Below, one piece after another: positions 10,943-63,547 of a stretch of 64,000 nt of DNA; the first letter of the stretch is position 1, and each line of letters begins with the position of its first letter. Origin of the DNA: a virus; IMG/VR virus record IMGVR_UViG_3300009609_000001, positions 36,268 to 100,267 of that record; one strand, written 5' to 3'. A program made the position numbers and the translations under genes. Below the pieces are notes generated by a model that was not told the origin of the DNA, searched no databases, and saw nothing but the letters and a program-made list of their open reading frames with translations.

Positions 10943-10944
10943 GT

Positions 10945-41898: not shown

Positions 41899-41904
41899 AA
41901 TGTC

Positions 41905-41941: not shown

Positions 41942-41972
41942 TAAACACTGTCACCTTCTTAGGAGGCGAGCA

Positions 41973-43183: not shown

Positions 43184-43203
43184 GGTATCAGATTCCCTGA
43201 GCC
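43184..43203 (+). promoter_or_regulatory. Leader hairpin element, copy a (portal gene)
   Basis: GGTA-TCAG-ATTCC-CTGA-GCC. A following stem (GAGC...ACGC with GCGT...GCTC) ends directly at the portal ATG. First of seven copies; see the copies at 50101, 51485, 51971, 58876, 61432 and 63491. Confidence 0.7.
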
Positions 43204-43236
43204 ACGCAAAGCCATTCACCCTGGCCGCGTGTGCTC

Positions 43237-44892
43237 ATGCCATCCATCAACGGCAGTAAATCCCGCCGAGACGATCCCGCCGGCAAGCATCGCGGCATCC
43301 CGCCAAACTTCGGCCGCGGCGTCGTTCCCCACGTTGCTACGTTCGTCGGCTTCATCTCCAGTTTCTCCAAGAGCTACCGGCCCAGCGACGAGGCCCTGCG
43401 GCATTCCATCGAGCAAGCCCGCTACATGCGGAACGACACCTCGATTATGGAATGCCTGGAGGCCCGCCAACGCGCTACGGCGCTGCTGAATTGGCACATC
43501 GAGCCGGAAGACGAGAAAGACCCGGAGCAAGTCGAGCTGGTCGAGAACCTGACGCGGATCGTGGAATTGACGCCGCGCTTCACGGAGTATCGACGCTGGC
43601 TCCTGGAAGCCATTTGGTTCGGCCGAGTGGCCAGCCAGAACATCTACGGCTGGGACATCCGACCCAGGCAGAAGAAACGCCTGTACGTCCGCCGCTGGAT
43701 GCCGATTCACGGCGACAAGCTGGTATTTCGCTTCGACGACGGGACCGGGAAGTACAGCGACGATCAAATCGGCATCAAGTACACGCAATTCGTCGATGCC
43801 GAGGATTTCAGCGGGCGATTCGAACTGGAGCCGACCGACTACGGCATGGCCTACTTCCTAAAGCCCTGGGAGCGGTCGCTGCTCACGGTCCATCGGCACA
43901 TGATCGAGGATGGGGCTTACGAGGATCCCCAGAGCGCCGGCAGAATCCACGGCGTCGGAATTCGGGACAGAATCTACTGGACGTGGTATCAAAAGCAAGA
44001 AGTGCTGGGGATGCTGATAGAACTGATCGAGCGAACCGGCATGGGGTTCAACATCTGGTATTACCCGGCCGGGAATGATCAGGCTTATCAGGACACCGTA
44101 GAAGCCGCCAAGAATCAAAGCGGCCAGAATGCCGTGCTGATTCCCCGCACTCCAGGTGACCCGGCGCTAGACGGCTACGGATATGACCGCATCGAGCCGT
44201 CGGGAAGTGGAATCCAGAACCTCAAGGATGTGATTCACGAGTTCTTTGGCCACCAGATCAAGCGCTACATCCTGGGGCAAACGCTGTCGAGCGAAGCGGA
44301 CGCCACGGGGCTGGGGAGCGGCGTCGCTGATTTGCACTTGGAATCCTTTCTGCAAATCGTCAAATACGACGCCACGAACTTGGAAGAGTCGATCACCACG
44401 GACCTGATCGAGCATCTCAAGCGGTTCAACTTCCCGGGGTCAAGTCATTTCCGGGTGAAGTTCAAGATCGACACGGAAGCCGCCGACGTGCAAGCCAAGC
44501 TGCAAGCCGTGTTCACCGCCTGGCAGATGGGCGCCGCTGTCCGCACGGCCGACGTGTTCGACATGATTGGCTTGTCGGTCCCTGGCCCGGATGATCAGGT
44601 ATTGGCCAATCCGCAGTTGCAACAGCAGCCGGCGCAGGAAGGGCAAGAGCCGCCGAAGTCTCCGCATCAAGCCGTCCTGGAAGCCCATTTGAACGAAGAG
44701 CCGAACGCGCACGGGGAATCTCCGCAGCAGGCGTTGCTTGAGGTCCTGACGCCCAGCAACAGCCCGGCGTCGGACGTGGCAGGCAAGGTGGTTCCACGGG
44801 GAGTAACGCGGCGGAGCGGGAATTGGAATATTACCCAGTACAATCGCAGCGGCTGGTCACGGGCGCTGAAGTTGTGGGGCGTGAGCATCTAA
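43237..44892 (+). CDS. Portal protein (DUF935/Mu gp29-like), 551 aa
   Basis: MRNDTSIMECLEARQRATAL and NWHIEP at the start, RRWLLEAIWFGRVASQNIY, then VIHEFFGHQIKRYILGQTLS and GVADLHLESFLQIVKYDAT match the DUF935 portal family. The dodecameric portal forms the DNA channel of the head. A C-terminal Gln/Pro-rich tail (residues about 455-505) may be flexible. ATG 43237 preferred to GTG 43231. Confidence 0.85.
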   Translation: MPSINGSKSRRDDPAGKHRGIPPNFGRGVVPHVATFVGFISSFSKSYRPSDEALRHSIEQARYMRNDTSIMECLEARQRATALLNWHIEPEDEKDPEQVELVENLTRIVELTPRFTEYRRWLLEAIWFGRVASQNIYGWDIRPRQKKRLYVRRWMPIHGDKLVFRFDDGTGKYSDDQIGIKYTQFVDAEDFSGRFELEPTDYGMAYFLKPWERSLLTVHRHMIEDGAYEDPQSAGRIHGVGIRDRIYWTWYQKQEVLGMLIELIERTGMGFNIWYYPAGNDQAYQDTVEAAKNQSGQNAVLIPRTPGDPALDGYGYDRIEPSGSGIQNLKDVIHEFFGHQIKRYILGQTLSSEADATGLGSGVADLHLESFLQIVKYDATNLEESITTDLIEHLKRFNFPGSSHFRVKFKIDTEAADVQAKLQAVFTAWQMGAAVRTADVFDMIGLSVPGPDDQVLANPQLQQQPAQEGQEPPKSPHQAVLEAHLNEEPNAHGESPQQALLEVLTPSNSPASDVAGKVVPRGVTRRSGNWNITQYNRSGWSRALKLWGVSI

Positions 44893-44906
44893 CCAGGGAT
44901 TCAAAC

Positions 44907-45290
44907 ATGGAACGCAGGTCTTTCTTTGGAATGTGCATCGCGGCGATGGGTGGACTGCTTGGGACGCGCTCTGCCAAGCCGGAATTCAAGGGATCGGTTG
45001 TTGAGTGGCAGGGCGAGACCGGCACCCTGTCAAAGCCGCTGGAATCAGCCAAGCCGCTGGAATCAGCCGACCCATTTGAGGTAGTCGATGTCATGTACAT
45101 CGGCGAAGTTTTTGATGCCAATGGCGAAAGTGTCGATTGCATCACGCTACCGGTTCGCCGGATCGACGTGGATCGTTTTGGACGGGCCAGCAATTGGATG
45201 CGCGAAAATCTGACGACGACACCAAGTCGCGAGTGTCCTAAGCACGGAGATTTGATTTACGCAAAGCCGATCGGCGACAAGACAGCGTAA
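44907..45290 (+). CDS. Signal-bearing small protein, 127 aa
   Basis: MERRSFFGMCIAAMGGLLGT resembles a short twin-arginine or lipoprotein-like signal (RR-S-F-F, hydrophobic core). KPLESAKPLESADP comes from a direct duplication of 18 bases. Rest is beta-rich and ends with CPKHGDLIYAKP. Exported or head-associated; unknown. Confidence 0.65.
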   Translation: MERRSFFGMCIAAMGGLLGTRSAKPEFKGSVVEWQGETGTLSKPLESAKPLESADPFEVVDVMYIGEVFDANGESVDCITLPVRRIDVDRFGRASNWMRENLTTTPSRECPKHGDLIYAKPIGDKTA

Positions 45291-45349
45291 GCCGCACCCA
45301 TAACCTTATATGTTGTGCAAGTTTTTGACCCACAAGGGGGGTATTGGCG

Positions 45350-48300
45350 ATGGGAGTGCTGACCGTCTCCGAAGCAATCCGCGTGCTCTACAAGCGGATC
45401 ACTCCCGCCGTTGGCCAGAAGGAGTTCTGGTCCAATGAACCGCGCGATGCCGGTGGAAAGTGGACGACTCCGGCACATGAGGCTGTGGCACGACCAAAGG
45501 ACGACGACGAGCATTTTAAGTTGAGCGATCGCCCGTCGCCAAAGTTCGAGCCGCTTGTCGAGGATCCTCCTCGGGACGAGAAACAGCCGCCACCACAACA
45601 CGAACCACTCCCGGGTCAGAAGGAGATGTTCGGCGCGACGGTGTCTGCAAAGACCAAGCCGGCCACCAACGAAGCCCTCTGCGCCCGCATCAAGTCCGGC
45701 GACAGCGGGGCCGAGGATGCCCTGCTGAAACAGAATCAGGGTCTGGTCTACAGCATTGCCCGGCGATACACGCGCACCCCCGGCGATCTTGAGGACTTGG
45801 CCCAGGAAGGAAATATCGGCCTTCTGGAAGCCGCCCGGCGCTTCGACCCTGAGAAGGCCAAGCATTTTTCGACCTATGCCAACCTCTGGGTGCTGGCCAA
45901 GGTGGGAAACTACGCCAAGAAATCCTGGAAGCAGTCCACCACGCAAGTAGGTGGCGACGACGACGAAAGTTCTATCGACGATCTAGCCGTGGACACCGGG
46001 GACACCTCGCCTGGATCTGGACTGGAAACATCGGAGTCACAAGACAAGCTGCGCGCCGCGGTGGCAACGCTTCCTGAGCGAGAAGCCCTGGCGGTCCGAC
46101 TGCGGTTTGGTCTTGAAGGTAACGAACCGCACGAGTTCGAAGAGATCGGAGACAAGTTGGGCATCTCTCGGCAACGGGCGCACCAGATCACCGAGAAGGC
46201 GATGGAGAAGCTTCGCCGCACGATGAAATACCGGCGCGTGGCGGACGTGCTCAAGGCGCTATATGCGAAGAAGCACAAGCCCGCAGCCAATCAGGCGTCG
46301 ATGTGGGGAGAAGAACAAGAGAAGCTCCATCCCCGCGATGAGGGCGGGAAGTGGACGCACGCGCAAATGAGCGTCGCCAAGAAAGCCGTCGAGCACATGA
46401 AGGGCAAGTTGCACGGCCCGAAGAGTAAAGAGGACCTTGTGTTTGCGGCCGGCGATCACTACTTCAACGATTCCGAGGCACGAAAGCACTTTGATTCACA
46501 CAAGCATTTTCAGGAGGGCGTGAAGGCGCATTTGGAAACGTCGGAGCAACAGGCTGCGCCAGAACAGTCGGCGGCAAAAGAGCCGCACGAAATGACGCTG
46601 GACGAGTGGGTCCAATCGATGATTGGCAAGCCATATAGAAACGGCACCACGGGAGAAAATGCGGTCTATAACGAATTGGACTTGGCCCGCCTCAATCAAC
46701 TGCACGAGAATCATGTCGCCACCGAACTGATTCACGGGGGAACGGTTCTGCCCGAAGTGCTGGCCGATTATCCCGACCTGCAGCCGAAGGCCACCGAGAA
46801 GCCTCAAAACATCACCGGTAGATACTCCCGCACCCTCTCCACCCGCGACGCCCTGCGCAAGGTCATGTACGCCTCATACCGCGGGAGCGCATTCGTCGTT
46901 CCAAAGATGGTATCCCTACAGCCGCCAAAACCTGGCGTTGGCCAAAAGCACTTCGGATTCGCAGGCGATTCGGGAGTGCATCAGCCGCCGCAGGACCCGG
47001 AGTTCGAAAAGCTCCATCCTCGTGGAAAAGGCGACAAGGGCGGCCAGTTCGCCGAGAAGCCGGAAGGCGAGAAGGCAAAGGACGATGCCGAGAAGAAAAC
47101 CGAGAAGCCGGCAGCAGAATCAGCGCCACACCCTCTGGCGGCCAAGCATGCCGAGGCCAAGAAGCACGTCACGGTCCCTGGATCAGTCACGCTGTTGAAG
47201 CACGGTTCGGAGTTTCACGCCTTCGGGGACGATGCGGCCAAGCTGGCGGAACATGGCATTGGCGACGGTCAACACGCTCACTTCGGTATGGGGGAGTTAA
47301 ATCGGCACTTGACGAATCTGACGGGCAAAGGCCAGCGTGTGGCGATCGCCGAACCTCGCGGGAAAGAGCCGGTCGCCGAACCTCCAAAGCCGCCGAAACC
47401 GGAGCCGATTCCGGCCGAGCGCCCCCCTGCGATAGCACCGCCTGCCAAAGCCGCGCCAGCTCGCCGCGTTGCACCAGCGCCGGCCGTCAAGGCACAGGCG
47501 ACAAATCCACCACAGCAGCATCCCAGCGTCCAGCAAGCTCTGCGCGACCTGGAACAAAAGCACGGACTGAGGAAGTCTCCGCCGCATCAATCGGACGTTC
47601 AACTTGCGCCGGAATCGCCATCCAAGCCGCAATCCGTCAAGGAAATCATCGCATCCGTTCACGCCAAGCATGGATTGCCACCGCGAGCGAAGCCGGCACC
47701 ATCCAAGCCGCCAACCTCAATGACCCTGGCCGACATCGCCGCATGGAACAAAGCCGGACACTTGAAGATTCCGTCAAGCGTCACGTTGGCTGGCATCCAA
47801 GAACGCATGGCCAGCCGGCAATACGAGCCCGTCACCATCGCCAAGCAGAAAGACGGCACGCTGGCGGTCATCGGCGGAGCGGAAAGCCTGCTGGCTGCGG
47901 CCAAGAATCACGAGAAGCAAGTCGCCGTACGACTTTCGGACAATGCCCACAAGCACTTCGCACAGAACTCTCCCAAACCAAAGGTAGATCCGGAGAAGAT
48001 TGCCAAGGGAGTGAGCGCCATCAAAAGCCGCCTGATGAGCATTTCTGACCATTCCCCGATTCACGAGCGGGTGCATCAATCGCTTGGAACGAAGTCCGTC
48101 CGGGAAGTCGAGCAGCGATTGGACGCCGCGGCGCAATCCGGCGACATGAGCACACTAAAGGCAGTCGAGCAAGCCATCTGGCCGGATCGATACCCGAAGT
48201 CCACAAAACAAACGCTGTCCGACCTGTTCAAGAAATCCCATCAGCCGTCGTCGGAAACTCCAACCCCAGCACCGCACGAGACCCCCTCGGCATACGAGGA

Positions 48301-50077
48301 TTGGCTGCCATCTGAATTTCACCAGAACATTGCCAGCATTTCTCAAGAGCACGGCATCGACCCGGGCGACCTGCGCGAAGCAGTGGATGACCTGCACCGG
48401 GAATCCGTTGATGGCTGGCGAGAGCGTTTGAACATGTTCAACGCCTACCAAAGCAAAGGCATGACCCCCAGCAGCCTCAATGCCTGGCAGGAGTCCGGCA
48501 AGGACTTGGAAGAGTACCCCGGCATGGATGAAGCGGTAGCCAGATTCTCCGGGACGTGGGGCGAGCACGGCGGGTATGGCGCTGGCCAATTCAACGTCGG
48601 CAAGTCCAGAACCAGCGCTGCCGTAGACAGCCCAACAGAGCAATTCGTCGCCATGATGCTGGCGGGCCGGCCGCGGAAGCCGGTCAAGGACGAGGGGATG
48701 ATTCGCACGGCCGCCGCACAAGTTAAATCAGCGCAGCAGTATCGTCCGGCTAGTGGCGAGCAAGTTCCGTTCTCGCGCGAAGGCCGGAAAGAGCGATACC
48801 TGCGGGACCTTTGTGAGCATGTGAACAAAGCGGCCGGTGACTGCCACCCAAATCCCAGCGATCCGCAACGAAAAGCCGGAAACTTTCGCAAGGGCCACGT
48901 ATGGGTGCATGGCCTGCCCATCAGCATCGAAACCGCTAAGGGATTCAAGCGCTGGCCCGGGGGACCGCCTCTGGCTGCGCACTACGGCTACATCAAGGGG
49001 ACCAGCAGCCGCGACGACCAGCAGCTTGATGTATTCGTTGGCCCCGTGCCGTCGAGCCAAATCGTATTCCTGATCGACCACCGCAGAAAGAGCGGGCGAT
49101 TCGACGAGACGAAGGTCCTCATTGGTTTTTCCAGCCGAGAGCAAGCCGTCAAGGCGTATCTCTCGTCCTATCCTCCGGGCCGCAGGGCATTCCCGTTGAC
49201 CAAAATGACGATCTGGCAATTCAAGGCCTGGCTCAAGGAGGGCGACCAGCGTACCCCGGTCGAGCGACAGGTGAGCAAGTTCGCGCGGTCGCCAGCGGAC
49301 GTGCTCAAGCAGCTTTACAAAAAGATCAAGCCAGCCACCGGGCAGATCGGACTATTCGCTCCGCATCCCGCCAAAGCCTCAGTGCAGCATACCGCCACGG
49401 TCGCGCTGCCCGAGCCCAACTTCACCGGCGTTATCAAAGACAGCCTCGGCCGCGAGCAACACTACGTTGACGGCGTGCATGTGGCCGGGCCGCAAGATGC
49501 GGAGACGCCGAAGCCGGTCAAAAAGATCGAGCCAAAGCCTCGGCAGAAGTCCATGTTCGACGATGACGTGCAATGGGTCGAGGTCAACAACACCCACGTC
49601 GCGATTGAGCCGGATGGAAAGATCGTCCACGGTCCGGAAGGCATGGAAGGCAAGCAGATCGACGAGATCGAGAAGGTGGAGGAGCCAACGGATGTTATGG
49701 CCGAATCGTCGGAAGACACCGTAACGGAACCATCGCCATCTCCCTGGAAACTCTCCCGGGGCGACTTTCACAAGCAGCAGAAGCCGGGCTACGACGTTGC
49801 CGCCACGAACCGCGAACACAGGGAATCGGTCGAGCAAGCCCTGGCAGAAGGAAAGGATGTTCCCGCTGAGGCATATCGGGATTACGCTGATTTGAAGCCA
49901 AAGGCCAAGACGGTTGAGGAGGCGATTCGGGGCGTGGTGGCTCCGAAACCGATAGCGAGCGCTGCGGAACCAAGTACAATAGGATTGGAAGGCGGTCAAG
50001 AGCGTGCGCGAGGCACTGGTGGGGATTTCCTCCGTATGACGCAAAAACCGTTGACAAGTCAGCCGCAAAAAGCCTAG
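45350..50077 (+). CDS. Giant modular (polyvalent-type) protein with sigma-70, ParB-like and pyrophosphatase-like domains, 1575 aa
   Basis: Residues about 120-190 are sigma-70 region 2 (NQGLVYSIARRYTRTPGDLE, DLAQEGNIGLLEAARRFDPE, FSTYANLW). Residues 241-290 are region 4 (LPEREALAVRLRFGLEG, then IGDKLGISRQRAHQITEKAM). An acidic 45-residue linker replaces region 3. About 790-863 is ParB-like (YEPVTIAKQKDGTLAVIGGA, signature DGHHR lost). About 1140-1300 is a pyrophosphatase-like domain of polyvalent proteins (AHYGYIKGTSSRDDQQLDVF, DETKVLIGFSSREQAVKAY). A V-L-x-x-L-Y-x-x-x-x-P-A-x-x-Q motif recurs at about 5, 297, 498 and 1314. Position between portal and scaffold suggests head packaging and injection. 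Confidence 0.85.
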   Translation: MGVLTVSEAIRVLYKRITPAVGQKEFWSNEPRDAGGKWTTPAHEAVARPKDDDEHFKLSDRPSPKFEPLVEDPPRDEKQPPPQHEPLPGQKEMFGATVSAKTKPATNEALCARIKSGDSGAEDALLKQNQGLVYSIARRYTRTPGDLEDLAQEGNIGLLEAARRFDPEKAKHFSTYANLWVLAKVGNYAKKSWKQSTTQVGGDDDESSIDDLAVDTGDTSPGSGLETSESQDKLRAAVATLPEREALAVRLRFGLEGNEPHEFEEIGDKLGISRQRAHQITEKAMEKLRRTMKYRRVADVLKALYAKKHKPAANQASMWGEEQEKLHPRDEGGKWTHAQMSVAKKAVEHMKGKLHGPKSKEDLVFAAGDHYFNDSEARKHFDSHKHFQEGVKAHLETSEQQAAPEQSAAKEPHEMTLDEWVQSMIGKPYRNGTTGENAVYNELDLARLNQLHENHVATELIHGGTVLPEVLADYPDLQPKATEKPQNITGRYSRTLSTRDALRKVMYASYRGSAFVVPKMVSLQPPKPGVGQKHFGFAGDSGVHQPPQDPEFEKLHPRGKGDKGGQFAEKPEGEKAKDDAEKKTEKPAAESAPHPLAAKHAEAKKHVTVPGSVTLLKHGSEFHAFGDDAAKLAEHGIGDGQHAHFGMGELNRHLTNLTGKGQRVAIAEPRGKEPVAEPPKPPKPEPIPAERPPAIAPPAKAAPARRVAPAPAVKAQATNPPQQHPSVQQALRDLEQKHGLRKSPPHQSDVQLAPESPSKPQSVKEIIASVHAKHGLPPRAKPAPSKPPTSMTLADIAAWNKAGHLKIPSSVTLAGIQERMASRQYEPVTIAKQKDGTLAVIGGAESLLAAAKNHEKQVAVRLSDNAHKHFAQNSPKPKVDPEKIAKGVSAIKSRLMSISDHSPIHERVHQSLGTKSVREVEQRLDAAAQSGDMSTLKAVEQAIWPDRYPKSTKQTLSDLFKKSHQPSSETPTPAPHETPSAYEDWLPSEFHQNIASISQEHGIDPGDLREAVDDLHRESVDGWRERLNMFNAYQSKGMTPSSLNAWQESGKDLEEYPGMDEAVARFSGTWGEHGGYGAGQFNVGKSRTSAAVDSPTEQFVAMMLAGRPRKPVKDEGMIRTAAAQVKSAQQYRPASGEQVPFSREGRKERYLRDLCEHVNKAAGDCHPNPSDPQRKAGNFRKGHVWVHGLPISIETAKGFKRWPGGPPLAAHYGYIKGTSSRDDQQLDVFVGPVPSSQIVFLIDHRRKSGRFDETKVLIGFSSREQAVKAYLSSYPPGRRAFPLTKMTIWQFKAWLKEGDQRTPVERQVSKFARSPADVLKQLYKKIKPATGQIGLFAPHPAKASVQHTATVALPEPNFTGVIKDSLGREQHYVDGVHVAGPQDAETPKPVKKIEPKPRQKSMFDDDVQWVEVNNTHVAIEPDGKIVHGPEGMEGKQIDEIEKVEEPTDVMAESSEDTVTEPSPSPWKLSRGDFHKQQKPGYDVAATNREHRESVEQALAEGKDVPAEAYRDYADLKPKAKTVEEAIRGVVAPKPIASAAEPSTIGLEGGQERARGTGGDFLRMTQKPLTSQPQKA

Positions 50078-50100
50078 TATTACGGCTGAGAAACCGAAAA

Positions 50101-50155
50101 GGTATTGGACCAACCAAGCCCGCCGTCCCGCAAAGGGACGAGCGGGCTTTTTTAT
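50101..50155 (+). promoter_or_regulatory. Leader hairpin element, copy b, with terminator
   Basis: GGTA-TTGG-ACCAA-CCAA-GCC (50101-50120) runs into a terminator: GCCCGCCGTCCC (50118-50129) with GGGACGAGCGGGC (50135-50147), then TTTTTTATTT. The GCC is shared by both stems. Scaffold gene starts 11 bases after the T run. Confidence 0.75.
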
Positions 50156-50165
50156 TTGCCGAACG

Positions 50166-51464
50166 ATGCCTGCAACCTTAGCTCCAATTCGCACGCCTCC
50201 TCTGGACGAATACTCCGTCGAGCACGACGTGCCGATCTTCACGGAGCACACCATCGAGGTCGAGGGCGACAGCGGCGAGAAAGAGTCCGACTGCTACGGG
50301 CTGAAGGAACTCCAGTACATCACCGACAACCTGAACAACCGCATCGAGGATACCGGCGACTTCGTGCCGATCGTCGTCGGGCACACCGACCCGGAAGATA
50401 AATCGGTCAAGCCGCCTGTCGTGGGGTTCGCCGGCCCGTACAAGATCGGGCGTTTCGGCCGAACGAAACCGCGATGGGCCATCTTTGCTGAAAATTGGTG
50501 GACGCGCAAGGATCCCGCCACGGTCGAGCTAATCAAGCAGCATCCGCGGCGCTCCGTCGAGCTGTGGCGAGAGGATCGCTACGAGGATCGGTTCTTTGAC
50601 CCGATCAGCCTCCTGGGCGCAGACACGCCTCGTCTGGACCTGGGATTGATGTTCAGCCGAACCAGCGGCAAGAAGATTCGCCGCTACTCCGCCGTGGCAC
50701 CCAGCGGCACCAATACTTTCGCTCCGACGTTCGGGGATGAAAAGAAGAAGCTCAATTACGCCGGCCCAGAGCCGGACGACATTTCCTCCGAGGAGGGCGA
50801 TATGCCTAGCGTCGATGAAATCGTTCAGGCCCTGGAACAAACCGACGTTTTTCAGTGGGCGCGCGGGAAGATGGCCGAGGAATCCGGCGTTGGTGGCGAT
50901 GCCGATGACGCTGCGCCTCCTGAGGCTCCGCCTGCCGCCCCGCCACCAGCCAATCCGCCGCCCGGCGATCAGGAGAACATGAACATGCCCTACGCCAGAA
51001 CCGGCGACAAGGACCGCTACGCCCGCCTGGAGCGTGAGTTGCGGGAAACGAAAGACTTGTACGCCAAGACGGACCGCGAGAACAAGGCCCTCAAGGATCG
51101 TCTCGACGCCAAGGACCAGGAAACGACTCGCGCCGTCCGATACGCCCGCCTGCAAGAGCTTTCCATGCAGCACGTCCTTGACCCCGAAGAGGAAATCGAG
51201 GAAGTGCTGGCGATGGACGACAAGACGTGGGACAAGCATCAGGATCGCATCCTGAACCGCTACGAGCGAATCCCCGCCGGCCGCGTGCTGCCCTACGAGC
51301 GCCCCGCGATGCTCAAGAGCGAAGCCGCTGATTCGGCCGCGGAGAAGGAAATCGCCGAAGAGGCCGCGAACCTGGTCACTTCCAAGCGGAACGCTGGCGA
51401 GAAGATCACCTACTCGGCCGCCCGTGAACTCGTTGTCCAGCAGCGCAAACAAAAGCGAGCCTAA
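50166..51464 (+). CDS. Head scaffold/protease-type protein, 432 aa
   Basis: VVGHTDPEDKSVKPPVVGFA then GPYKIGRFGRTKPRWAIFAE, TVELIKQHPRRSVELW resemble phage head protease/scaffold proteins that precede capsid genes. The C-terminal half has a Pro-rich spacer (about 250-275) and a coiled coil (DRYARLERELRETKDLYAKT, REDNKALK-like heptads), as scaffolds do. Placement before decoration and capsid genes agrees. Confidence 0.7.
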   Translation: MPATLAPIRTPPLDEYSVEHDVPIFTEHTIEVEGDSGEKESDCYGLKELQYITDNLNNRIEDTGDFVPIVVGHTDPEDKSVKPPVVGFAGPYKIGRFGRTKPRWAIFAENWWTRKDPATVELIKQHPRRSVELWREDRYEDRFFDPISLLGADTPRLDLGLMFSRTSGKKIRRYSAVAPSGTNTFAPTFGDEKKKLNYAGPEPDDISSEEGDMPSVDEIVQALEQTDVFQWARGKMAEESGVGGDADDAAPPEAPPAAPPPANPPPGDQENMNMPYARTGDKDRYARLERELRETKDLYAKTDRENKALKDRLDAKDQETTRAVRYARLQELSMQHVLDPEEEIEEVLAMDDKTWDKHQDRILNRYERIPAGRVLPYERPAMLKSEAADSAAEKEIAEEAANLVTSKRNAGEKITYSAARELVVQQRKQKRA

Positions 51465-51484
51465 GTTCGCAAACTGAACCTTTT

Positions 51485-51535
51485 GGTATCGGACCAACCG
51501 AGCCTGTAACACCCTCCATTCAGGAGTAACAGGCA
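51485..51535 (+). promoter_or_regulatory. Leader hairpin element, copy c, masking an RBS
   Basis: GGTA-TCGG-ACCAA-CCGA-GCC (51485-51504) is followed by GCCTGT/ACAGGC enclosing CTCC/GGAG, so the second stem hides the GGAG ribosome site of the decoration gene. The two stems compete for GCC. Confidence 0.75.
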
Positions 51536-51940
51536 ATGTCCGGTATCCCAGGTTTTCAAGGCGTGGCTGGCGGCGACATCAACACCAGCCGCTTCGTCAA
51601 GATTTCCACCGCCGCCAACAAGACGCTCTTGGAAGCAGGCGCTAGCGAGCGTTGCTTCGGCATCTCCCAGGAAGGCACGGCGCTGGCCCCGATCCCCAGC
51701 GCAAGCGGACTAGCGGCCGTCGCCGGCAATCCGATCCACGTCTACATCCCCGGCCAGTTCTGCTTGCTGAAGATCGGCTCCGGTGGGTGTGTCGCTGGTG
51801 ATCAGCTTGCTCCAGGAACCGACGGCAAGGGCGTCATCAACACCACGGACAAGCGCTGGACCGGTGCAATCGCCTTGGAAACCGCGTCCGAAGACGAGTT
51901 GGCGCTGGTCTACGTGATGGCCGGATTCAACGCGGCGTAA
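51536..51940 (+). CDS. Capsid decoration (DUF2190-like) protein, 134 aa
   Basis: RFVKISTAANKTLLEAGASE, CFGISQEGTALAPIP, GNPIHVYIPGQFCLLKIGSG, GDQLAPGTDGKGVINT and GAIALETASEDELALVYVM follow the DUF2190-like pattern of small beta-rich proteins beside capsid genes. Probably stabilises the capsid surface. Confidence 0.75.
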   Translation: MSGIPGFQGVAGGDINTSRFVKISTAANKTLLEAGASERCFGISQEGTALAPIPSASGLAAVAGNPIHVYIPGQFCLLKIGSGGCVAGDQLAPGTDGKGVINTTDKRWTGAIALETASEDELALVYVMAGFNAA

Positions 51941-51969
51941 CCCCCGAACAACCAATTTTTTCGACTTCT

Positions 51970-51991
51970 GGGTACTGAATCACTCAGGCCC
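51970..51991 (+). promoter_or_regulatory. Leader hairpin element, copy g (capsid gene)
   Basis: GGGTA-CTGA-ATCAC-TCAG-GCCC. The stem bases differ completely from the other copies but still pair. CGTG after it can pair with the CACG that overlaps the capsid GTG start. Confidence 0.65.
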
Positions 51992-52019
51992 GTGAAAGCC
52001 CCTAACAAGGAGTTGACAC

Positions 52020-53066
52020 GTGGCTGCTTACCCATCCGGTAGTAACACCTTCGTATTGAGCCACGACGCGACCCAGAACATGGTCGTGGACTTCGCCCGC
52101 AACATCGAGGATTTTGCGGTCAATGAGTACGTGCAAATTCGCAAGGTCGATAAGGTCGCCGGCTACTGGCTGCAAATGACAGTCGAGGAAGCCGGTCGCA
52201 TCCTGAACACGAACCTGGCCGACTTCGAGTGGGCGGATGGCACGGTCGATCCGGAAGCCAACGACGGAACCGAGTCGTTCGAGTTCCTGTCCTACCTGGC
52301 CAAGCGCTATCGCTTTGGATTCAACATGGGCTACCTGGCCAGTGGTCAGGCCGGCTGGGATATCATCGCCCAACACTCCAGCATCAAGGCCCGTCAGGCG
52401 ATGACGGCGCGCACCCAGAAGGTCGCCACGCTGTTGCAGACTTCCGGAAACTACGACTCCACGCACACCTCGGCGGTCGCGTCCATCACCGGCGTATCCG
52501 GAAAGTGGGACGTATCCACAACGGCGCGGTCTGACATCAAGCGGTCGCTCGATTACGCGGCGGACATCATCTACCGGGATACGCTCGGCGCGGTCAGCAA
52601 GAAGGACCTGAACCTGGTCGTTTCACCGGGCTGCTTGCGGAAGATGAGCGTCTCGCAAGAGATCGTCGATCTGCTCAAGGGTTCTCCCAGCGCCTACGGA
52701 TGGCTGCAAGGCGCACTGGCTGGAGAGAAGGTGGACTACGACGTTCCCAAGGAGCTGTACGGCTACCGCCTGGTGGTCGAGGGAGCGGTCAAGGTCACTT
52801 CCCGCAAGGGCGCCACCCGCGCCACGAGCTATGTCTGGAGTGACACGTCGCCAGCGCTCATCAGCCGCGTAGGCGCGTTGGAAGCCAAGATTCCTTCGCA
52901 GGCCCCCAGCTTCTCGACCTGCACGCTGTTCATGCAAGAGGAAATGACGGTCGAGACCCGCGATGAACCGGACAACCGGCGCACGAAGGGCCGCGTGGTG
53001 GAATGCTACGACACGAAGCTGACCGCGCCTTCGAGCGGGTTTTTGTTCACGTCGGCTGTGGCCTAA
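52020..53066 (+). CDS. Major capsid protein, 348 aa, GTG start
   Basis: N-arm (AAYPSGSNTFVLSHDATQNM), helical segment KARQAMTARTQKVATLLQTS, DIKRSLDYAADIIYRDTLGA (spine helix), NLVVSPGCLRKMSVSQEIVD (typical MCP probe-strand region) and a C-terminal beta tail. Size, position after scaffold and decoration, and the leader element support the call. AAGGAG precedes GTG 52020. Confidence 0.85.
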   Translation: MAAYPSGSNTFVLSHDATQNMVVDFARNIEDFAVNEYVQIRKVDKVAGYWLQMTVEEAGRILNTNLADFEWADGTVDPEANDGTESFEFLSYLAKRYRFGFNMGYLASGQAGWDIIAQHSSIKARQAMTARTQKVATLLQTSGNYDSTHTSAVASITGVSGKWDVSTTARSDIKRSLDYAADIIYRDTLGAVSKKDLNLVVSPGCLRKMSVSQEIVDLLKGSPSAYGWLQGALAGEKVDYDVPKELYGYRLVVEGAVKVTSRKGATRATSYVWSDTSPALISRVGALEAKIPSQAPSFSTCTLFMQEEMTVETRDEPDNRRTKGRVVECYDTKLTAPSSGFLFTSAVA

Positions 53067-53084
53067 TTGCTTGGGGCAGCGGCA

Positions 53085-53579: not shown

Positions 53580-53586
53580 GTGATAC

Positions 53587-54084: not shown

Positions 54085-54085
54085 C

Positions 54086-54553
54086 ATGTGGAACTGGCTC
54101 AAATCGCTCTTCCGGCGGCACGACAGCCGGGAAATCTTCTCCTTCTGGGATGGCGTGCGCGAGCGCCGCGCAGACCCGATCACGCTCTATCGCGGATTGT
54201 CCAGTCACAAAGATTACAACCTGGAAAACGACATCCCCGCCACGGTTGAAGGCGATCCGACTGCTCACGCCCTCACGGTTCGCGTCGTCCGGGAAGTGTT
54301 TGACGTACCCGGCTGGTCGGAAGATAGCCCAGGATTGACCGAACGGGAAACCGTCGAGTTACTTTGGCAGTTTGACGGCTACCTTGAATCGCTAAAAAAA
54401 AGTACCAATCTGACGCTGATCTCGCGGCCTGCTATGGAGCCGCCGCCCTCGGAATCCTCTCTCACGAGCAGCGAGTCGGACTCTGGCTCAACATCTCACG
54501 AAGCCAAATCCGACAAGCCTACGGAGTGCTTGGAGCCGTTAGCAGTGCCCTAA
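54086..54553 (+). CDS. Tail assembly chaperone, zero-frame product, 155 aa
   Basis: Begins MWNWLKSLFRRHDSREIFSF and carries a helical domain (ETVELLWQFDGYLESLKK). At codons 103-105 it meets A-AAA-AAA. Zero frame continues as a Ser/Glu/Pro-rich tail; the -1 frame gives a normal domain (see next entry). Position just before the tape measure is where tail chaperones sit. Confidence 0.8.
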   Translation: MWNWLKSLFRRHDSREIFSFWDGVRERRADPITLYRGLSSHKDYNLENDIPATVEGDPTAHALTVRVVREVFDVPGWSEDSPGLTERETVELLWQFDGYLESLKKSTNLTLISRPAMEPPPSESSLTSSESDSGSTSHEAKSDKPTECLEPLAVP

Positions 54554-54690
54554 AGGATTCGGTCGGTGCCGAGTGGTTCAAGGCCATCTCTGAGACCGAA
54601 GAAGAGGGCACGGCGATGTACAACGTCCATTCCGCCATGTCTGAAATGATGGGCGATCGCAACGGCCATCCCCTGGGAGGCCATCGGTAA
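54086..54690 (+). CDS. Tail chaperone, -1 frameshift product, about 201 aa
   Basis: Residues 1-105 are from the zero frame, then reading from 54400 in the -1 frame: KYQSDADLAACYGAAALGIL, SHEQRVGLWLNISRSQIRQA, YGVLGAVSSALKDSVGAEWF, ending NGHPLGGHR and TAA at 54688-54690. The stop shares its A with the tape-measure ATG (TAATG). Such G/GT-type shifts are conserved in siphovirus tails. The sum of protein character in the -1 frame and the exact junction is strong evidence. Confidence 0.8.
54394..54400 (+). promoter_or_regulatory. Ribosomal -1 slippery heptamer A-AAA-AAA
   Basis: Eight A in a row (54394-54401) placed so that the zero-frame codons are CTA-AAA-AAA-AGT. Slipping one base back gives AAG-TAC, entering the open frame that ends at the tape-measure start. 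Confidence 0.8.
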
Positions 54691-56807: not shown

Positions 56808-56894
56808 GATAACGGACGCCAAGCTTGGCTTCATCGCAATGGCCACCGCCAAAAGAACATACGCCGCGACGACCCCCGAAATAGTTTTTTTCAT
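56766..56894 (-). CDS. 42-aa two-span membrane peptide, antisense
   Basis: MKKTISGVVAAYVLLAVAIA then MKPSLASVILGPVFFVVLSR FL: two hydrophobic helices with a basic start. Minus strand, overlapping the end of the tape-measure gene. With its upstream partner (56899) it could be a holin or a small lysis peptide; the opposite strand makes it unusual in this operon. Confidence 0.5.
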   Translation of the reverse strand: MKKTISGVVAAYVLLAVAIAMKPSLASVILGPVFFVVLSRFL

Positions 56895-56898
56895 GTGA

Positions 56899-57030
56899 CT
56901 ACCCAAGTCCATATTGAAGAAGGTCGAGAACCGCGCCAATAACAGGCAGTAATTTCGGGGTCACCAGTAGGCCAGTTGCCAATAGCGCCCAAGAAGAAAT
57001 AGCCAGGATTGACAACCATCGGGGTTTCAT
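56899..57030 (-). CDS. 43-aa membrane peptide, antisense
   Basis: MKPRWLSILAISSWALLATG then LLVTPKLLPVIGAVLDLLQY GLG: basic start and two hydrophobic stretches. It fills the space between the tape measure and the tail gene and ends five bases before the next antisense start. Ribosome sites are weak, so translation is not certain. Confidence 0.5.
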   Translation of the reverse strand: MKPRWLSILAISSWALLATGLLVTPKLLPVIGAVLDLLQYGLG

Positions 57031-58836: not shown

Positions 58837-58875
58837 CTCGCCATTATGCAAAACCTGCTAAACTAACCGCCAACT

Positions 58876-58927
58876 GGTATCGGACACACCGAGCCGCGCG
58901 TTCCCTCCGGGGACGTGCGGCTTTTTT
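58876..58927 (+). promoter_or_regulatory. Leader hairpin element, copy d, with terminator
   Basis: GGTA-TCGG-ACACA-CCGA-GCC (58876-58895), then GCCGCGCGTTCCC with GGGACGTGCGGC and TTTTTT. Loop differs from copy c but stem is kept. GGAG of the next gene follows at once. Confidence 0.75.
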
Positions 58928-58941
58928 CATGGAGATAGACC

Positions 58942-59370
58942 ATGAGCGCCACAACCATCGAAGCAGAAGTCCTGGAAGCCTCGTCCGCCAAGACCGCCAG
59001 CAGCACGGGCACGACGGCGATCGGGGGCCGCGGCGAGTTCCGAGCAGCGGAGTTTGAGCTTGACGTGACGGTATCCGACACGGACGCCGGCGACACCCTT
59101 GATGTTTTCATTCAAACCACGATCGACGGGACCAACTGGCTGGATGTCGTGCATTTCACCCAGGTCATCGGAACGGATACCGCCAAACGGTTCGTCGCCA
59201 AGATCGTAGGCACGCTGGCGGAAGCCATGTACGAAGTCGCCTCAGCCTTGGCCGCCGGTTCCGTTCGCCACATCCTTGGAAAACGCTACCGGGCGCGATG
59301 GGACTTGGTGGACGCCGGTGCCGACAACGCGAGCTTTACCTTTTCGATCACTGCGAACTTCATCCCCTGA
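58942..59370 (+). CDS. Virion-region beta protein, 142 aa
   Basis: GEFRAAEFELDVTVSDTDAG, DTLDVFIQTTIDGTNWLDVV, FTFSITANFIP: a single beta-sandwich-like domain, as in small tail or head accessory proteins that begin with polar repeats. Ends in a TGATG junction with the next gene. Confidence 0.65.
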   Translation: MSATTIEAEVLEASSAKTASSTGTTAIGGRGEFRAAEFELDVTVSDTDAGDTLDVFIQTTIDGTNWLDVVHFTQVIGTDTAKRFVAKIVGTLAEAMYEVASALAAGSVRHILGKRYRARWDLVDAGADNASFTFSITANFIP

Positions 59371-60974
59371 TGGCAGTCAATCTGACAACGCTGTTCACTC
59401 GCTGGGGCAAGATGCTCTTTGCCCTGAACACGCTCAACACTGCGCGTCTGACCACGGTTCCGGATGAAATCCAGGATGTACTCGACGAGTTCGCCTCGGC
59501 CTCGGCGGCCATTCTCTCCACGGTTGACAATCTTCCCGATGCCATTCCCGCCTGGCAGTCAGGGACCGGCAGCATCGCCACGGAGCTACAGGCTTCATTT
59601 CAGGCCCTACTGGTGCAAATGGTCAAGGATGACAACGTGCAACCCGATGACGCACTGCTGACGGCCTACGACGAGCTATTGCGGCAAATGGACGCCAGCA
59701 GCGACACGGTAGACGCCAGCGTGGTTGCGGGCACGGCGACGGCGGACGCTGGGAATACCGGGACCGGCGCCTTTCTGGTTTCCGTAAAACGTGGCGATGG
59801 GCGCAGCGAAGAGAACCTCTACGCGGAAGATGTCCGCTTCATTTGCACGGCGCGCGGAGAATCGGCGACGTTCAGCTTCGCCGGGGAACCCACGGTCGAT
59901 TACCTCTCTGAGCAATGGCCAGATGGCTCGGGCTGCTCGGGCAGCGTGACCGTCATTACCTCAGACGACAGCCTGGCTGACAATGGCGGCTTTGAGGACG
60001 AAGACGATATTTCTGACGTGCCCGATGGTTGGGAAGTGATCGTCGGCACTCCTGGGACCACGTTTCGAATTACGGAGCCCGAAGTTCAAACGGTTGTGAT
60101 TTCCGGGACTCCCACACTGGGAACCTATGCCCTGGTGTTCACCAACGCTGCCGGAAAGGTGCAAATCACTGGCCCACTCGATTTCGACGCTGACGGTGGG
60201 ACCGTGCAAGCAGCCCTAAATGCCCTGATTGGCGCGGAAGGCTGGACGATTGACACCACGGGGACCAGCCCAAACTACACGCACACGATCACCATGCTGG
60301 ACGGACCCGGAGGCAACGTCACTCAGCTTAGCAGCATGGCCTCGGCCACGTTCAATGGCACGATCGGCCACGCGACGACAACCGTTGGTGGGGAATCCTT
60401 CCGTGGCTCGAAGTCCCTGGAGTTCATCGGCGGGGCCACGCTCAATGCGATTCAGATTCCACTGGCAGATCTGACGGCCGCGACCGCCTATGCCTGCAAC
60501 ATCTGGGCGAAGGTGAGTTCCGTTCCCGGCGCGGGGGACTTTCGCATCTGCCTTTGGGATGGCTCGGCGGTCGTCAACGATGATCAGGGCGTAGCCAACA
60601 GCCTGACTGTCAACTGCCCCGGTTTGACAACGAACTGGGCCGCCCAGAAGGTGATGTTCCAGACCCCGTCCGTTATGCCGCCAGTCTTGTATCTGCGGAT
60701 CGAACTGACGACCGCGCTTTCCGGCGGGGTGTCTCTGTACCTGGACGAGCTGGCGTTCGATGCGGCAGATTTGTTGTACATTGGCGGGCCAAATGCTAAA
60801 CTGTTCTCCGGTTCAACCCAATGGGAAGTAGCGGACGCCTTTACGCTGGCAATGACGAACGACCGGGCGGGAGAATTCCAGACAGGAGTGTTTCGCGCAA
60901 TTCAATCTCCGGAAAGATTGTTGCCAAGCAACGCGGCGGCTGGTGAAACGATCAGCGACGCGCTGGTCAGCTAG
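59370..60974 (+). CDS. Tail-tip protein with carbohydrate-binding-like domain, 534 aa
   Basis: Helical start (MAVNLTTLFTRWGKMLFALN, TARLTTVPDEIQDVLDEFAS), then beta-rich repeats, and NGGFEDEDDISDVPDGWEVI...SFRGSKSLEFIGG, which resembles CBM4-type carbohydrate-binding modules, followed by LYLRIELTTALSGGVSLYLD. Probably a receptor or cell-wall contact protein. ATG 59370 set by TGATG. Confidence 0.6.
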   Translation: MAVNLTTLFTRWGKMLFALNTLNTARLTTVPDEIQDVLDEFASASAAILSTVDNLPDAIPAWQSGTGSIATELQASFQALLVQMVKDDNVQPDDALLTAYDELLRQMDASSDTVDASVVAGTATADAGNTGTGAFLVSVKRGDGRSEENLYAEDVRFICTARGESATFSFAGEPTVDYLSEQWPDGSGCSGSVTVITSDDSLADNGGFEDEDDISDVPDGWEVIVGTPGTTFRITEPEVQTVVISGTPTLGTYALVFTNAAGKVQITGPLDFDADGGTVQAALNALIGAEGWTIDTTGTSPNYTHTITMLDGPGGNVTQLSSMASATFNGTIGHATTTVGGESFRGSKSLEFIGGATLNAIQIPLADLTAATAYACNIWAKVSSVPGAGDFRICLWDGSAVVNDDQGVANSLTVNCPGLTTNWAAQKVMFQTPSVMPPVLYLRIELTTALSGGVSLYLDELAFDAADLLYIGGPNAKLFSGSTQWEVADAFTLAMTNDRAGEFQTGVFRAIQSPERLLPSNAAAGETISDALVS

Positions 60975-60992
60975 AATCAAAAACGGTGCAAA

Positions 60993-61136
60993 ATGGTGAT
61001 CTCCTTGAAGCTTGGCGTGATCCGACAAGATTCTCAGGGAGAGTACCGTTATGCCACGAAAAGGACAGCCGCGCACAAATCGTTTTTGGAAAAGAAAGCG
61101 ACCGCTATTCGCGCGAGGTTGGCGGTTGCCGGTTAG
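60993..61136 (+). CDS. Small protein, 47 aa (overlapping alternative frame)
   Basis: MVISLKLGVIRQDSQGEYRY then ATKRTAAHKSFLEKKATAIR ARLAVAG has balanced composition. An overlapping 37-codon frame, 61051-61164, has a better GGGAG site but is almost pure Arg/Lys (PRKGQPRTNRFWKRKRP), as shadow frames often are. I favour the 47-codon frame, not strongly. Confidence 0.45.
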   Translation: MVISLKLGVIRQDSQGEYRYATKRTAAHKSFLEKKATAIRARLAVAG

Positions 61137-61170
61137 AAGAATCGGCCACGGCCGACGAAAGTAAGGAACG

Positions 61171-61416
61171 ATGTCGATTCACGAGATGTACGGCCGCATG
61201 GCGGAGGAAAACCAGCGACTTGCGCAGGAGTACAAAAACCTCCTGGGATTGCTGGACAGCGTGCGGACCGGCAAGGTCGATCCAGCGAGAATCGAAATCA
61301 ACATGGCCGCCGACTCGTGGACGCTGCTGCCAGATAAACCGGTCGCGGAAAAGTCAGAGAACGGCGAGTGGAAGAAACGTGATCCAGTCACCGGAGCGGA
61401 GTTAGCACCGAACTAA
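61171..61416 (+). CDS. Small tail-region protein, 81 aa
   Basis: HEMYGRMAEENQRLAQEYKN (helical, possible coiled coil) then ARIEINMAADSWTLLPDKPV. Between tail-tip and adhesin genes; perhaps a chaperone for fibre folding. GGAACG site. Confidence 0.65.
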   Translation: MSIHEMYGRMAEENQRLAQEYKNLLGLLDSVRTGKVDPARIEINMAADSWTLLPDKPVAEKSENGEWKKRDPVTGAELAPN

Positions 61417-61431
61417 ACTTAACTGCCTTTC

Positions 61432-61490
61432 GGTATCGGATTCCACCGAGCCGCAGAGTCCCAACGGATTCTGACGGCTCGTTTCTTTTT
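61432..61490 (+). promoter_or_regulatory. Leader hairpin element, copy e, with terminator
   Basis: GGTA-TCGG-ATTCCA-CCGA-GCC (61432-61452; six-base loop), then CGAGCCG pairing with CGGCTCG followed by TTTCTTTTT. The terminator arm overlaps the first stem by CGAGCC, so only one can form. Confidence 0.75.
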
Positions 61491-61501
61491 GGAATTCGAT
61501 C

Positions 61502-62716
61502 ATGGCTCTTACCGCTTCCAACGGCTTGGCGATGGCTGGCACGACAGCCCAGCGTCCCGGATCTGCGGAGACCGGTCAGCCGTATTTCGATACCACCATC
61601 ATGGGCTGGATCGTGTGGAACGGCACGACCTGGCAAGATGCCGCCGATTCTGCCTCGGCTGATGCCGCAATTGGCTCAATCACAGGCGGAGACTCGTCCC
61701 TTGCAATCGCCGGCCTGGCAGCCTCCGGGAGCGGTGCCGGTGGGTCCGTACCAATTTCCGGGTCAGTCGGCGGAACGCATACAACGGGCACTGGTGGGGC
61801 TGGTGGGGCATCTGGAATCACGGCTGGAGCTGGCGGCGCGGCGAGCGGCGCGGCTGGTGTCGGCGGGGCCGGCGCGGCAGCGAACCTTACTGCTGGTGCT
61901 GGCGGCGCTGCGTCAAATGCGGCGAGCGGAAACGCTGGAGCCGGTGGTGCATCTACCGTCTTGGCTGGCGCAGGCGGGGCCGCGACCGGGACTGGCGCTG
62001 CCGCTGGCGGAGCTGGTGGTCTGGCGAGCGTAACAGCCGGCGCTGGTGGCGCAGCAGCGGGAACGTCTGCCGCGGGCGCGGGCGGCGCAGCTTCCCTTGT
62101 CTCCGGCGCTGGTGGCGCGAAGAGCGGCACAGGAACGGCCAACGGCGGCGCAGGCGGGACAGTCTCGATCACTGGCGGCGCTGGAGGGGCAACGGCGTCA
62201 ACCGATGCAGGATCGCTTGGTGGGGCTGGCGCACCTATTTCGATCACTGCCGGAGCTGGTGGGGCTTGCTCTGCGGGAACCGGCGCAGGTGGTGTCGGCG
62301 GCACGATCACGCTGGCTCCCGGAGCCGGCGGTACGTCAGCCGGCGGAAATGCTGGTGCGCCGGGTCGAGTCAAGGTTGGCGGCGCTGGCCTGTTCGCGTT
62401 TGCCAATGCTCAGACGATCGACATGGCCGACGCCACGGTGCAACTCACGCTGGTTCCCGGAGTCCCAGCCGGCACGCTACTGACTTCCACGGTGCTGTAC
62501 ATCGACGCCAACTCTGGCGCGACCGAAGACCTGGAGTTGCCGCACGAAGCGGACTCGAACGGCTTGGTGCTGATTGTCAAGAACACGGGTGGGGAAGACA
62601 TCGTGGTGAAAGACGATTCTGGAGTCACGACCATTTGCACGATCAGCACCACGGAAAGCGCCGTCCTGTTCTGCGACGGCACAACTTGGAGCGGATTCGT
62701 CGGACAAACAACGTAA
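61502..62716 (+). CDS. Gly/Ala-rich adhesin-like protein, 404 aa
   Basis: N-terminal attachment part (AQRPGSAETGQPYFDTTIMG, WIVWNGTTWQDAADS), then about 200 residues of G-A-G-G-A repeats (about 85-295), then a beta-sandwich end (TLVPGVPAGTLLTSTVLYID, ADSNGLVLIVKNTGGEDIVV). Long Gly repeats can pack as polyglycine II helices, as in T-even type adhesins. Likely a receptor-binding tip. Paralogue at 63565. Confidence 0.75.
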   Translation: MALTASNGLAMAGTTAQRPGSAETGQPYFDTTIMGWIVWNGTTWQDAADSASADAAIGSITGGDSSLAIAGLAASGSGAGGSVPISGSVGGTHTTGTGGAGGASGITAGAGGAASGAAGVGGAGAAANLTAGAGGAASNAASGNAGAGGASTVLAGAGGAATGTGAAAGGAGGLASVTAGAGGAAAGTSAAGAGGAASLVSGAGGAKSGTGTANGGAGGTVSITGGAGGATASTDAGSLGGAGAPISITAGAGGACSAGTGAGGVGGTITLAPGAGGTSAGGNAGAPGRVKVGGAGLFAFANAQTIDMADATVQLTLVPGVPAGTLLTSTVLYIDANSGATEDLELPHEADSNGLVLIVKNTGGEDIVVKDDSGVTTICTISTTESAVLFCDGTTWSGFVGQTT

Positions 62717-62813
62717 TTATGTGGTTTTGAAACAAACTAGACATGATAAAATGACCCCGCGATGTTGTAAGCATCCGGGGTCGTGGCCAAAACCTGAAAG
62801 GAAGGTTTCGACG

Positions 62814-63479
62814 ATGATTAGGGTACGCGAGGAAGCGTGTGGCGTAAAGCAGGGAGACAAGTTCGAGCGACTTGAGGTAATCGGCTGTCCGTTCAGCAAT
62901 GGAAAAGGCAGGTGGTGGGCTGTTTGTTTGTGCGAATGCGGAAACGTTATCGTCTCAGACGTGCAGAACCTGAAAAAGCCAAACCATACAACGTCTTGCG
63001 GTTGTAGACATAAAGAAATCACCAGGAGCCAAAAGCCGAACCTTAAGCACGGAAAAACGGATCACCCGCTTTACTCTGTTTGGATTGGAATGCGCCGGCG
63101 ATGCACAGACGAAAAAGATCAGGAGCACTTTAGGCGATACGGAGGTCGGGGCATCTCGGTTTGCGACGAATGGCAGGACTTCGAGGCATTTTACCAATGG
63201 GCAATTGCGAACGGATGTAAGCCCGGCCTGACCATCGACAGGCGAGATAACGACGGAAATTACGAACCAGGAAATTGCCGCTGGGCGACGGATGTTGAGC
63301 AGTCAAGAAACATAAGCACTAATGTGCTCATTGCTGCGTTTGGCGAAACAAAGTGCGTAAGTGCGTGGGTCGAAGATGAACGATGTGTCGTGAAGCATCA
63401 CACCCTGCTAGGCAGAGTCCACGCAAACAAAATGACCGCTGAGCAGTGCATTACACAGCCGTCTCGAAACCGACGGTAA
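62814..63479 (+). CDS. HNH homing endonuclease between adhesin paralogues, 221 aa
   Basis: VKQGDKFERLEVIGCPFSNG, CLCECGNVIV, TSCGCRHKE zinc knuckle, YGGRGISVCDEWQDFEAFYQ and IDRRDNDGNYEPGNCRWATD HNH core, then a C-terminal helical DNA-binding part. Own AAGGAAGG site and an upstream hairpin (GACCCCG...CGGGGTC). Probably mobile, inserted between the two Gly-rich genes. Confidence 0.85.
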   Translation: MIRVREEACGVKQGDKFERLEVIGCPFSNGKGRWWAVCLCECGNVIVSDVQNLKKPNHTTSCGCRHKEITRSQKPNLKHGKTDHPLYSVWIGMRRRCTDEKDQEHFRRYGGRGISVCDEWQDFEAFYQWAIANGCKPGLTIDRRDNDGNYEPGNCRWATDVEQSRNISTNVLIAAFGETKCVSAWVEDERCVVKHHTLLGRVHANKMTAEQCITQPSRNRR

Positions 63480-63490
63480 ACACATTTCTC

Positions 63491-63547
63491 GGTATCAGAC
63501 CAACTGAGCCGACGGACTTCCGCAAGGAGGTTCGCCGGCTTTTTTGT
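63491..63547 (+). promoter_or_regulatory. Leader hairpin element, copy f, with terminator
   Basis: GGTA-TCAG-ACCAA-CTGA-GCC (63491-63510). Then AGCCG...CGGCT around TCC-GCAA-GG, followed by TTTTTTG and the AAGGAG of the next gene. Loop as in copy c, stem as in copy a. Confidence 0.75.

Follow-up and report, generated by a model that had tools for sequence, protein, structure and literature searches.

What is the function of a short RNA-like hairpin that is repeated seven times in a single phage genome, mostly in front of virion genes? The question is raised by a stretch of 64,000 nucleotides, here called the window, which covers positions 36,268 to 100,267 of the virus record IMGVR_UViG_3300009609_000001 and contains all seven copies of a 20-nucleotide element with a bulged A. 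We propose that this element is a protein-dependent attenuator, in which an antiterminator hairpin overlaps a terminator or a start-sequestering stem and a small, phage-encoded protein switches the virion genes on; this reading seems to us reasonably probable.

The first-pass annotation had described the element as GGTA, a four-base stem, a loop of five or six bases and GCC, and all copies that it listed are present on the plus strand: hairpin 1 at 43184..43203 (GGU(A)UCAG-AUUCC-CUGA-GCC), hairpin 2 at 50101..50120 (GGU(A)UUGG-ACCAA-CCAA-GCC), hairpin 3 at 51485..51504 (GGU(A)UCGG-ACCAA-CCGA-GCC), hairpin 4 at 51971..51990 (GGU(A)CUGA-AUCAC-UCAG-GCC), hairpin 5 at 58876..58895 (GGU(A)UCGG-ACACA-CCGA-GCC), hairpin 6, which has the six-base loop, at 61432..61452 (GGU(A)UCGG-AUUCCA-CCGA-GCC) and hairpin 7 at 63491..63510 (GGU(A)UCAG-ACCAA-CUGA-GCC). 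The stems likewise have the reported identities, TCGG in three copies, TCAG in two, and TTGG and CTGA in one each. When folded alone, each copy forms GGU, a bulged A, four base pairs, the loop, the complementary four bases and GCC, including a U-G wobble, which agrees with the lower pairing around an unpaired A that had been proposed. Both strands of the window were scanned for perfect matches to this pattern; only these seven were found, and there were none on the minus strand. When the entire 100,267-base record was searched with a covariance model based on all copies, the same seven and no others were returned. The GGTA/GCC spacing without the stem requirement was observed 14 times in the window compared to approximately 9 expected occurrences; it is not rare by itself, and the signal is therefore carried by the paired stem. 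It had also been claimed that every copy lies 29-54 bases before a virion gene. The spacing holds, with measured distances of 28-54 nucleotides, while two of the seven genes can be assigned to the virion by their position only.

The first-pass annotation does not mention a second, stronger stem, for which the final five bases of the hairpin (A/G-A/G-GCC) also serve as the first arm. In four of the seven window copies (50101, 58876, 61432 and 63491), and in nearly all relatives, this stem is an intrinsic terminator, GC-rich and followed by a T-run. The 5' arm of the terminator of copy 2 (50116..50153, +) starts with the last five nucleotides of the hairpin, the terminator of copy 5 (58891..58927, +) shows the same five-nucleotide overlap, and folding predicts a terminator-like stem with a T-rich tail for copy 6 (61448..61490, +) and an intrinsic terminator for copy 7 (63506..63545, +). 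At 43184, 51485 and 51971, the second stem reaches the start codon or the Shine-Dalgarno sequence of the genes coding for the portal protein, a 134-residue protein of the capsid region and the major head protein. The predicted exclusive stem of copy 1 (GAGCCACGC...GCGUGuGCUC; 43199..43236, +) ends at the portal ATG at 43237 and covers the GTG at 43231, that of copy 3 (GCCUGU...ACAGGC with CUCC/GGAG; 51502..51534, +) hides the Shine-Dalgarno sequence of the ATG at 51536, and that of copy 4 (GGCCCGUG...CACGUGGCU; 51987..52025, +) contains the GTG start at 52020. The stability of the second stem was compared with 500 dinucleotide shuffles of the downstream sequence per window copy, and equally stable structures were obtained from 0 (43184), 2 (50101), 25 (51485), 2 (51971), 1 (58876), 0 (61432) and 0 (63491) of these. 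The overlap is precise: of 64 scored copies, 56 have a terminator whose 5' arm starts five nucleotides before the hairpin ends, and in all 64 the overlap is four to six nucleotides. Furthermore, the GCC of the hairpin pairs with the downstream stem in the predicted minimum-energy fold of all 79 element leaders, with median predicted energies of -22.4 kcal/mol for the downstream stem and -4.3 kcal/mol for the hairpin. Hairpin and second stem are mutually exclusive, and the element is thus an attenuator.

The compensatory changes within the window had been taken as a sign of a conserved RNA fold, and this is borne out by a larger set of sequences. Among 47 distinct copies, pairing is found in 100% of the pair cells, with 70 changes that affect both sides of a pair. 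The score for covariation is 0.539, compared to 0.207 +/- 0.019 for shuffled alignments, and it collapses if the partners are slid against each other. Stem-unconstrained scans of IMG/VR uncovered dozens of copies in unrelated phages, in approximately 79 distinct contexts. In the least biased of these scans, which left the whole stem free, all four pairs were formed in 40 contexts, three in one, two in 12, one in 12 and none in five. This distribution is bimodal, and the first loop position is an A in 38 of the 40 fully paired contexts, although the scan did not demand it. When a terminator was required and two stem pairs were left free, 33 of 36 viral matches paired; for a second pattern, in which the closing pair was A-T, 40 of 120 did. 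The terminator-coupled pattern was also run on 257 gigabases of bacterial genomes, where 11 of 50 matches paired, a value near chance; three plausible real cases are found in Rufibacter, a Salinisphaera prophage and a Planctomycetales contig. Looser matches to the covariance model include the form GCUA...GGC, in which a lower pair is flipped to C-G and the terminator arm is flipped likewise (L160:4931). Four viral records (L322, L334, L347 and L351) contain a repeated sequence, GGTATTTTTTGAATTAAGCC, which is followed by a terminator and lacks the hairpin stem.

The same placement was expected in other phages, and indeed the element precedes portal, scaffold, protease and tail genes in unrelated ones. 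The matched downstream genes encode portal proteins (L031, L056 and L069), scaffold proteins (L042, L043, L045 and L051), head maturation proteases (seven contigs), a small terminase (L059), tail fibres (L066 and L077) and structural proteins; nearly all of them are head, packaging or tail genes. The downstream proteins do not belong to one family, which implies that the RNA was retained or acquired irrespective of the gene that it controls. No hairpin copies were found in relatives of the window phage identified via the major head protein or the portal (L009-L027), and capsid homology therefore does not track the element. One of the major head protein relatives, L009, contains a different repeat, CTCCTGCCGGCG-GGCCGGCTC, in four copies (1870, 2451, 3107 and 3512), which may constitute another hairpin family, and the related phage contig L012 contains numerous blocks in which CCACTA(A/T)C and AGTGGATAG recur as 7/14-base repeats, for instance, at 4563-4708, 10883-10984 and 13100-13190. 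For cultured relatives of the downstream genes, ten annotated regions were covered; none contains a hairpin copy, and some have plain terminators. Among 50,697 phage records, there was neither an exact copy of the tested 20-mers nor a clear homolog of the two family proteins tested. The first-pass annotation knew of no described family of this form; in line with this, the element has no Rfam match at gathering or permissive thresholds, and no description of such a system was found in the open-licence PubMed Central literature. The RNA family and the phage system thus appear to be new, whereas the general principle, protein-dependent attenuation of the BglG/RAT kind, is already known.

Which factor could act on the hairpin? 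An all-against-all comparison of the carriers revealed a protein family of around 60 residues beside the element and no large phage protein common to all of them. Members of this family consist of 41 to 76 residues, have an alpha-beta-beta arrangement and are distantly similar to DUF2292/OscA. According to an iterated profile, the protein gene is located within 1.5 kb upstream in 47 of the 79 element contexts, and its open reading frame ends 10 to 73 nucleotides before the hairpin in 29 of these 47. It was found within 1.5 kb upstream for 45 of 80 paired matches and for 0 of 119 unpaired matches from the same scans (p=5e-23). The window encodes a divergent member of 62 residues (42985..43173, +), the proposed RNA-binding antiterminator, whose stop codon lies 10 nucleotides before hairpin 1. 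This protein was missed by the first profile and recognized from the open reading frame upstream of the first hairpin; it matches the family profile that was rebuilt with the window sequence among its seeds (E=2.6e-10) and has a two-residue insertion in common with proteins of two other carriers. AlphaFold2 returned an alpha-beta-beta fold for two members, with predicted local distance difference test (pLDDT) values of 91 and 86; the latter is the mean for the window protein, whose model comprises a helix and two strands. One frame of 106 residues at G040:C1:27908-28117 (-), 30 nucleotides before an element, contains two neighboring stretches that weakly match the small-protein profile and are possibly a tandem duplication.

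RNA element and protein gene also co-occur in bacterial genomes. Rufibacter and Salinisphaera, which were chosen by the RNA pattern only, both encode the protein (E values of 5e-12 and 2e-15), while the remaining 479 of the 481 genomes searched, which belong to the same phylum or class, gave no match better than 1e-4; the homolog of the Salinisphaera prophage had already been among the profile rows, that of Rufibacter had not. In Rufibacter, a single protein gene is located before the first of two elements that are 13 kb apart. The Salinisphaera prophage has four elements, all of them behind the gene, and the nearest is a GGUG variant found by the covariance model. As in other genomes with several copies, one protein gene accompanies the seven hairpins of the window phage. 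Of the 11 multi-copy records in which the protein was found, 10 have its gene 5' of the first copy. The first attenuator thus comes after the protein gene, an order by which the protein would be made first and would then open the rest. It is unlikely that the hairpin is sensed by another factor, such as a host RNA-binding protein, the RNA polymerase, as with the HK022 put RNA, or a small molecule, and that the small protein is a frequent neighbor with another job. The conservation of the RNA across otherwise unrelated phages, the lack of any other phage protein common to all carriers and the failure to detect the small protein in some of them are compatible with such a sensor; however, the protein is found beside paired matches and never beside unpaired ones, the only two strong scores in the bacterial search come from the two genomes picked by RNA, and an element of 20 nucleotides has few invariant bases from which a small-molecule pocket could be built.

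In the mechanism that we favor, the nascent RNA would by default fold the much stronger downstream stem, and either the transcription or the translation of the virion gene behind it would be blocked. As the gene for the small protein lies directly upstream of the first copy, the protein would be made before that terminator acts and could accumulate. This protein probably binds the bulged-A hairpin in trans, as suggested by the conserved G-G-U-A ... A ... G-C-C features and a stem that is free in sequence and nevertheless paired. The bound hairpin would withhold the five nucleotides without which the downstream stem can neither close next to the U-tract nor cover the start site. Whether near or kilobases away, all copies would thereby be switched on, and the probable outcome is a delayed and coordinated expression of the virion genes. 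The polarity is likewise probable, and the main argument for activation rather than repression is that both platforms give the same sign: the start-region stems use the same arm as the terminators, and a stabilized hairpin would therefore mean ON in either case. We see a somewhat better than even chance that this constitutes a two-part regulon of uncultured tailed phages, which consists of a putative RNA-binding protein of around 50 residues and a 20-nucleotide bulged-A hairpin, present up to seven times per record, that gates termination or translation, thereby timing virion production across unrelated phages.

The same RNA and protein could act with the opposite sign if the protein melted or sequestered the hairpin or favored the terminator, which would result in a negative feedback limiting virion expression. 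The synthesis of the scaffold is autoregulated in phage P22, and gene linkage and distribution in trans leave the polarity unfixed. However, a factor favoring the terminator would have little to do, as the terminator is far stronger and wins in all predicted leaders, and a conserved hairpin whose stem is free in sequence and always paired is what a stabilizing binder needs; we therefore regard the opposite sign as rather improbable. It is very unlikely that hairpin and terminator form a passive, partly leaky module, which fixes the ratios between virion operons and in which the hairpin only tunes the strength of the terminator. Intrinsic terminators without the hairpin do occur between head genes of cultured phages, for instance, in Xanthomonas phage PBR31, but a passive module does not predict the conserved GGUA/A/GCC with its covarying stem, the start-sequestering platforms or the linked protein gene. 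A DNA signal, i.e., a promoter, recombination or packaging site, might be suspected from a repeated intergenic near-palindrome and is extremely improbable, as the stem bases vary freely yet stay complementary, neither a conserved sequence upstream of the copies nor a site resembling a promoter is found, and all window copies are on the coding strand, with terminators in the sense orientation of the RNA.

Several observations weigh against protein-dependent activation. The start-sequestering stems are represented by three copies from one phage only, and one of these is only marginally better than its shuffles. In several scans, GGTA, GCC and the terminator were prescribed, and the invariance of these parts is thus partly ascertained. 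The profile was built from proteins encoded upstream of elements, by which the linkage rate of the paired matches is enriched by construction; the 0/119 control and the matches far from an element, all of which lie in carrier genomes, are unaffected by this. In record G039, which is the exception to the gene order, one copy is located 5' of the protein gene, and the protein was not found in the carrier records G031, G038 and G036, all of which are possibly fragments. Most carriers are fragments, and absence of the small protein from them is weak evidence. The protein is only mildly basic, with a median net charge of +2, and a Foldseek search of the PDB with the model of a 41-residue member returned no significant fold relative. 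The families that it resembles, DUF2292 and OscA, are of unknown function, and most of the matches are below threshold: one of 10 members is just over the Pfam gathering threshold for DUF2292 (PF10055; 22.6 versus 22 bits), the others are below it and the window protein does not match; for OscA (NF033785), only a single member of 42 has a match (E=0.022), and none reaches the NCBIfam cut-off. The likeness to DUF2292/YezD and OscA consists of the size, a C-terminal motif, F-Y-G-x-(hydrophobic)...G-K-(I/V), and weak profile matches. Just one of the two families has a recorded cellular link, namely OscA, a small protein of unknown function that is tied to sulfur starvation and chromate (PMC2996968). 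No RNA role of DUF2292/YezD or OscA was found in the open-licence PubMed Central literature.

Several known systems resemble parts of the proposed switch. The element would behave like an antiterminator of the BglG/RAT kind, yet it has none of the testable sequence features of the RAT family. The BglG/SacY/LicT systems use an RNA hairpin that shares bases with the 5' arm of an intrinsic terminator, and a protein that stabilizes this hairpin permits read-through; the same overlap is found here. However, a RAT has around 30 nucleotides and two internal loops, whereas the phage element has 20 nucleotides and one bulged A, and the proteins of the BglG/SacY/LicT systems are larger, controlled by the phosphotransferase system and contain a CAT domain, whereas a phage protein of around 50 residues would act at up to seven sites per record. 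The RAT consensus was rejected for the lack of an Rfam match at the permissive threshold, and a CAT-PRD protein for the lack of such a Pfam match in the 41 to 76-residue protein. Phage lambda N/boxB and HK022 put also provide phage-encoded control of later genes via a small RNA hairpin, but they render the polymerase resistant over long distances, whereas an overlapping hairpin at every terminator fits local attenuation. The coat-protein operators of MS2 and PP7 are short hairpins with a bulged A, which in PP7 is located four pairs below a loop starting with A. This likeness comes without demonstrated homology, and these operators are sites of translational repression by the coat protein of single-stranded RNA phages, whereas the element described here mainly gates terminators. 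In riboswitches and ribosomal-protein leaders, a terminator or a stem at the ribosome site is in competition with the domain that is sensed, and the same sensor is combined with both platforms; the element differs from them by the absence of an Rfam match, by a sensor smaller than known metabolite aptamers and by its link to a protein gene. Four other identities were rejected: a riboswitch of an Rfam family, as there was no match even at a permissive threshold; a CsrA/RsmA operator with GGA in the hairpin loop, as this triplet is absent from copies with TCAG, TTAG, TTGA and TTTG stems; boxB; and a sigma-70 promoter, as only three -35/-10 sites, fewer than in shuffles, were found in 19 kb, one of which (50051-50080) is upstream of copy 2 only.

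The genes behind the window hairpins are all encoded on the plus strand. Hairpin 1 is followed by the gene for the portal protein (43231..44892; family match to phrog_113), hairpin 2 by a late-operon gene for a protein of 432 residues without a family match (50166..51464), hairpin 3 by the gene for the 134-residue capsid-region protein (51536..51940; phrog_673, annotated as head scaffolding) and hairpin 4 by the major head protein gene (52020..53066; family match to phrog_1005). A late-operon gene for 142 residues without a family match (58942..59370) lies behind hairpin 5, and a virion structural gene for 404 residues (61502..62716; phrog_20787) behind hairpin 6. Hairpin 7 precedes a further virion structural gene of phrog_20787 (63565..64000), whose ATG is located 54 nucleotides past the hairpin and which continues beyond the window. 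The window also contains three related HNH endonuclease genes (phrog_374) at 5726-6463 (-), 41862-42695 (+) and 62721-63479 (+), one of which just precedes the small-protein gene and one of which directly precedes hairpin 7. A protein of 1577 residues encoded at 45344-50077 (+) matches DarB-like, minor head, endolysin and 'sigma factor' PHROGs, and its family is common to eight of the 13 larger carriers of the RNA element. In addition, a tRNA-Leu(gag) gene is present at 29536-29619 (-).

For the virion genes of uncultured phages, the system proposed here is a directly testable switch, of which both parts are named. It would add an RNA family that is absent from Rfam, and it suggests that a single sensor hairpin serves terminator and start-site platforms alike within one operon. 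If the proposal is true, it would assign a job to a family of very small proteins of unknown function with a DUF2292/OscA-like fold, and an RNA tag of 20 nucleotides and its binder of around 50 residues would form a compact antitermination tool.

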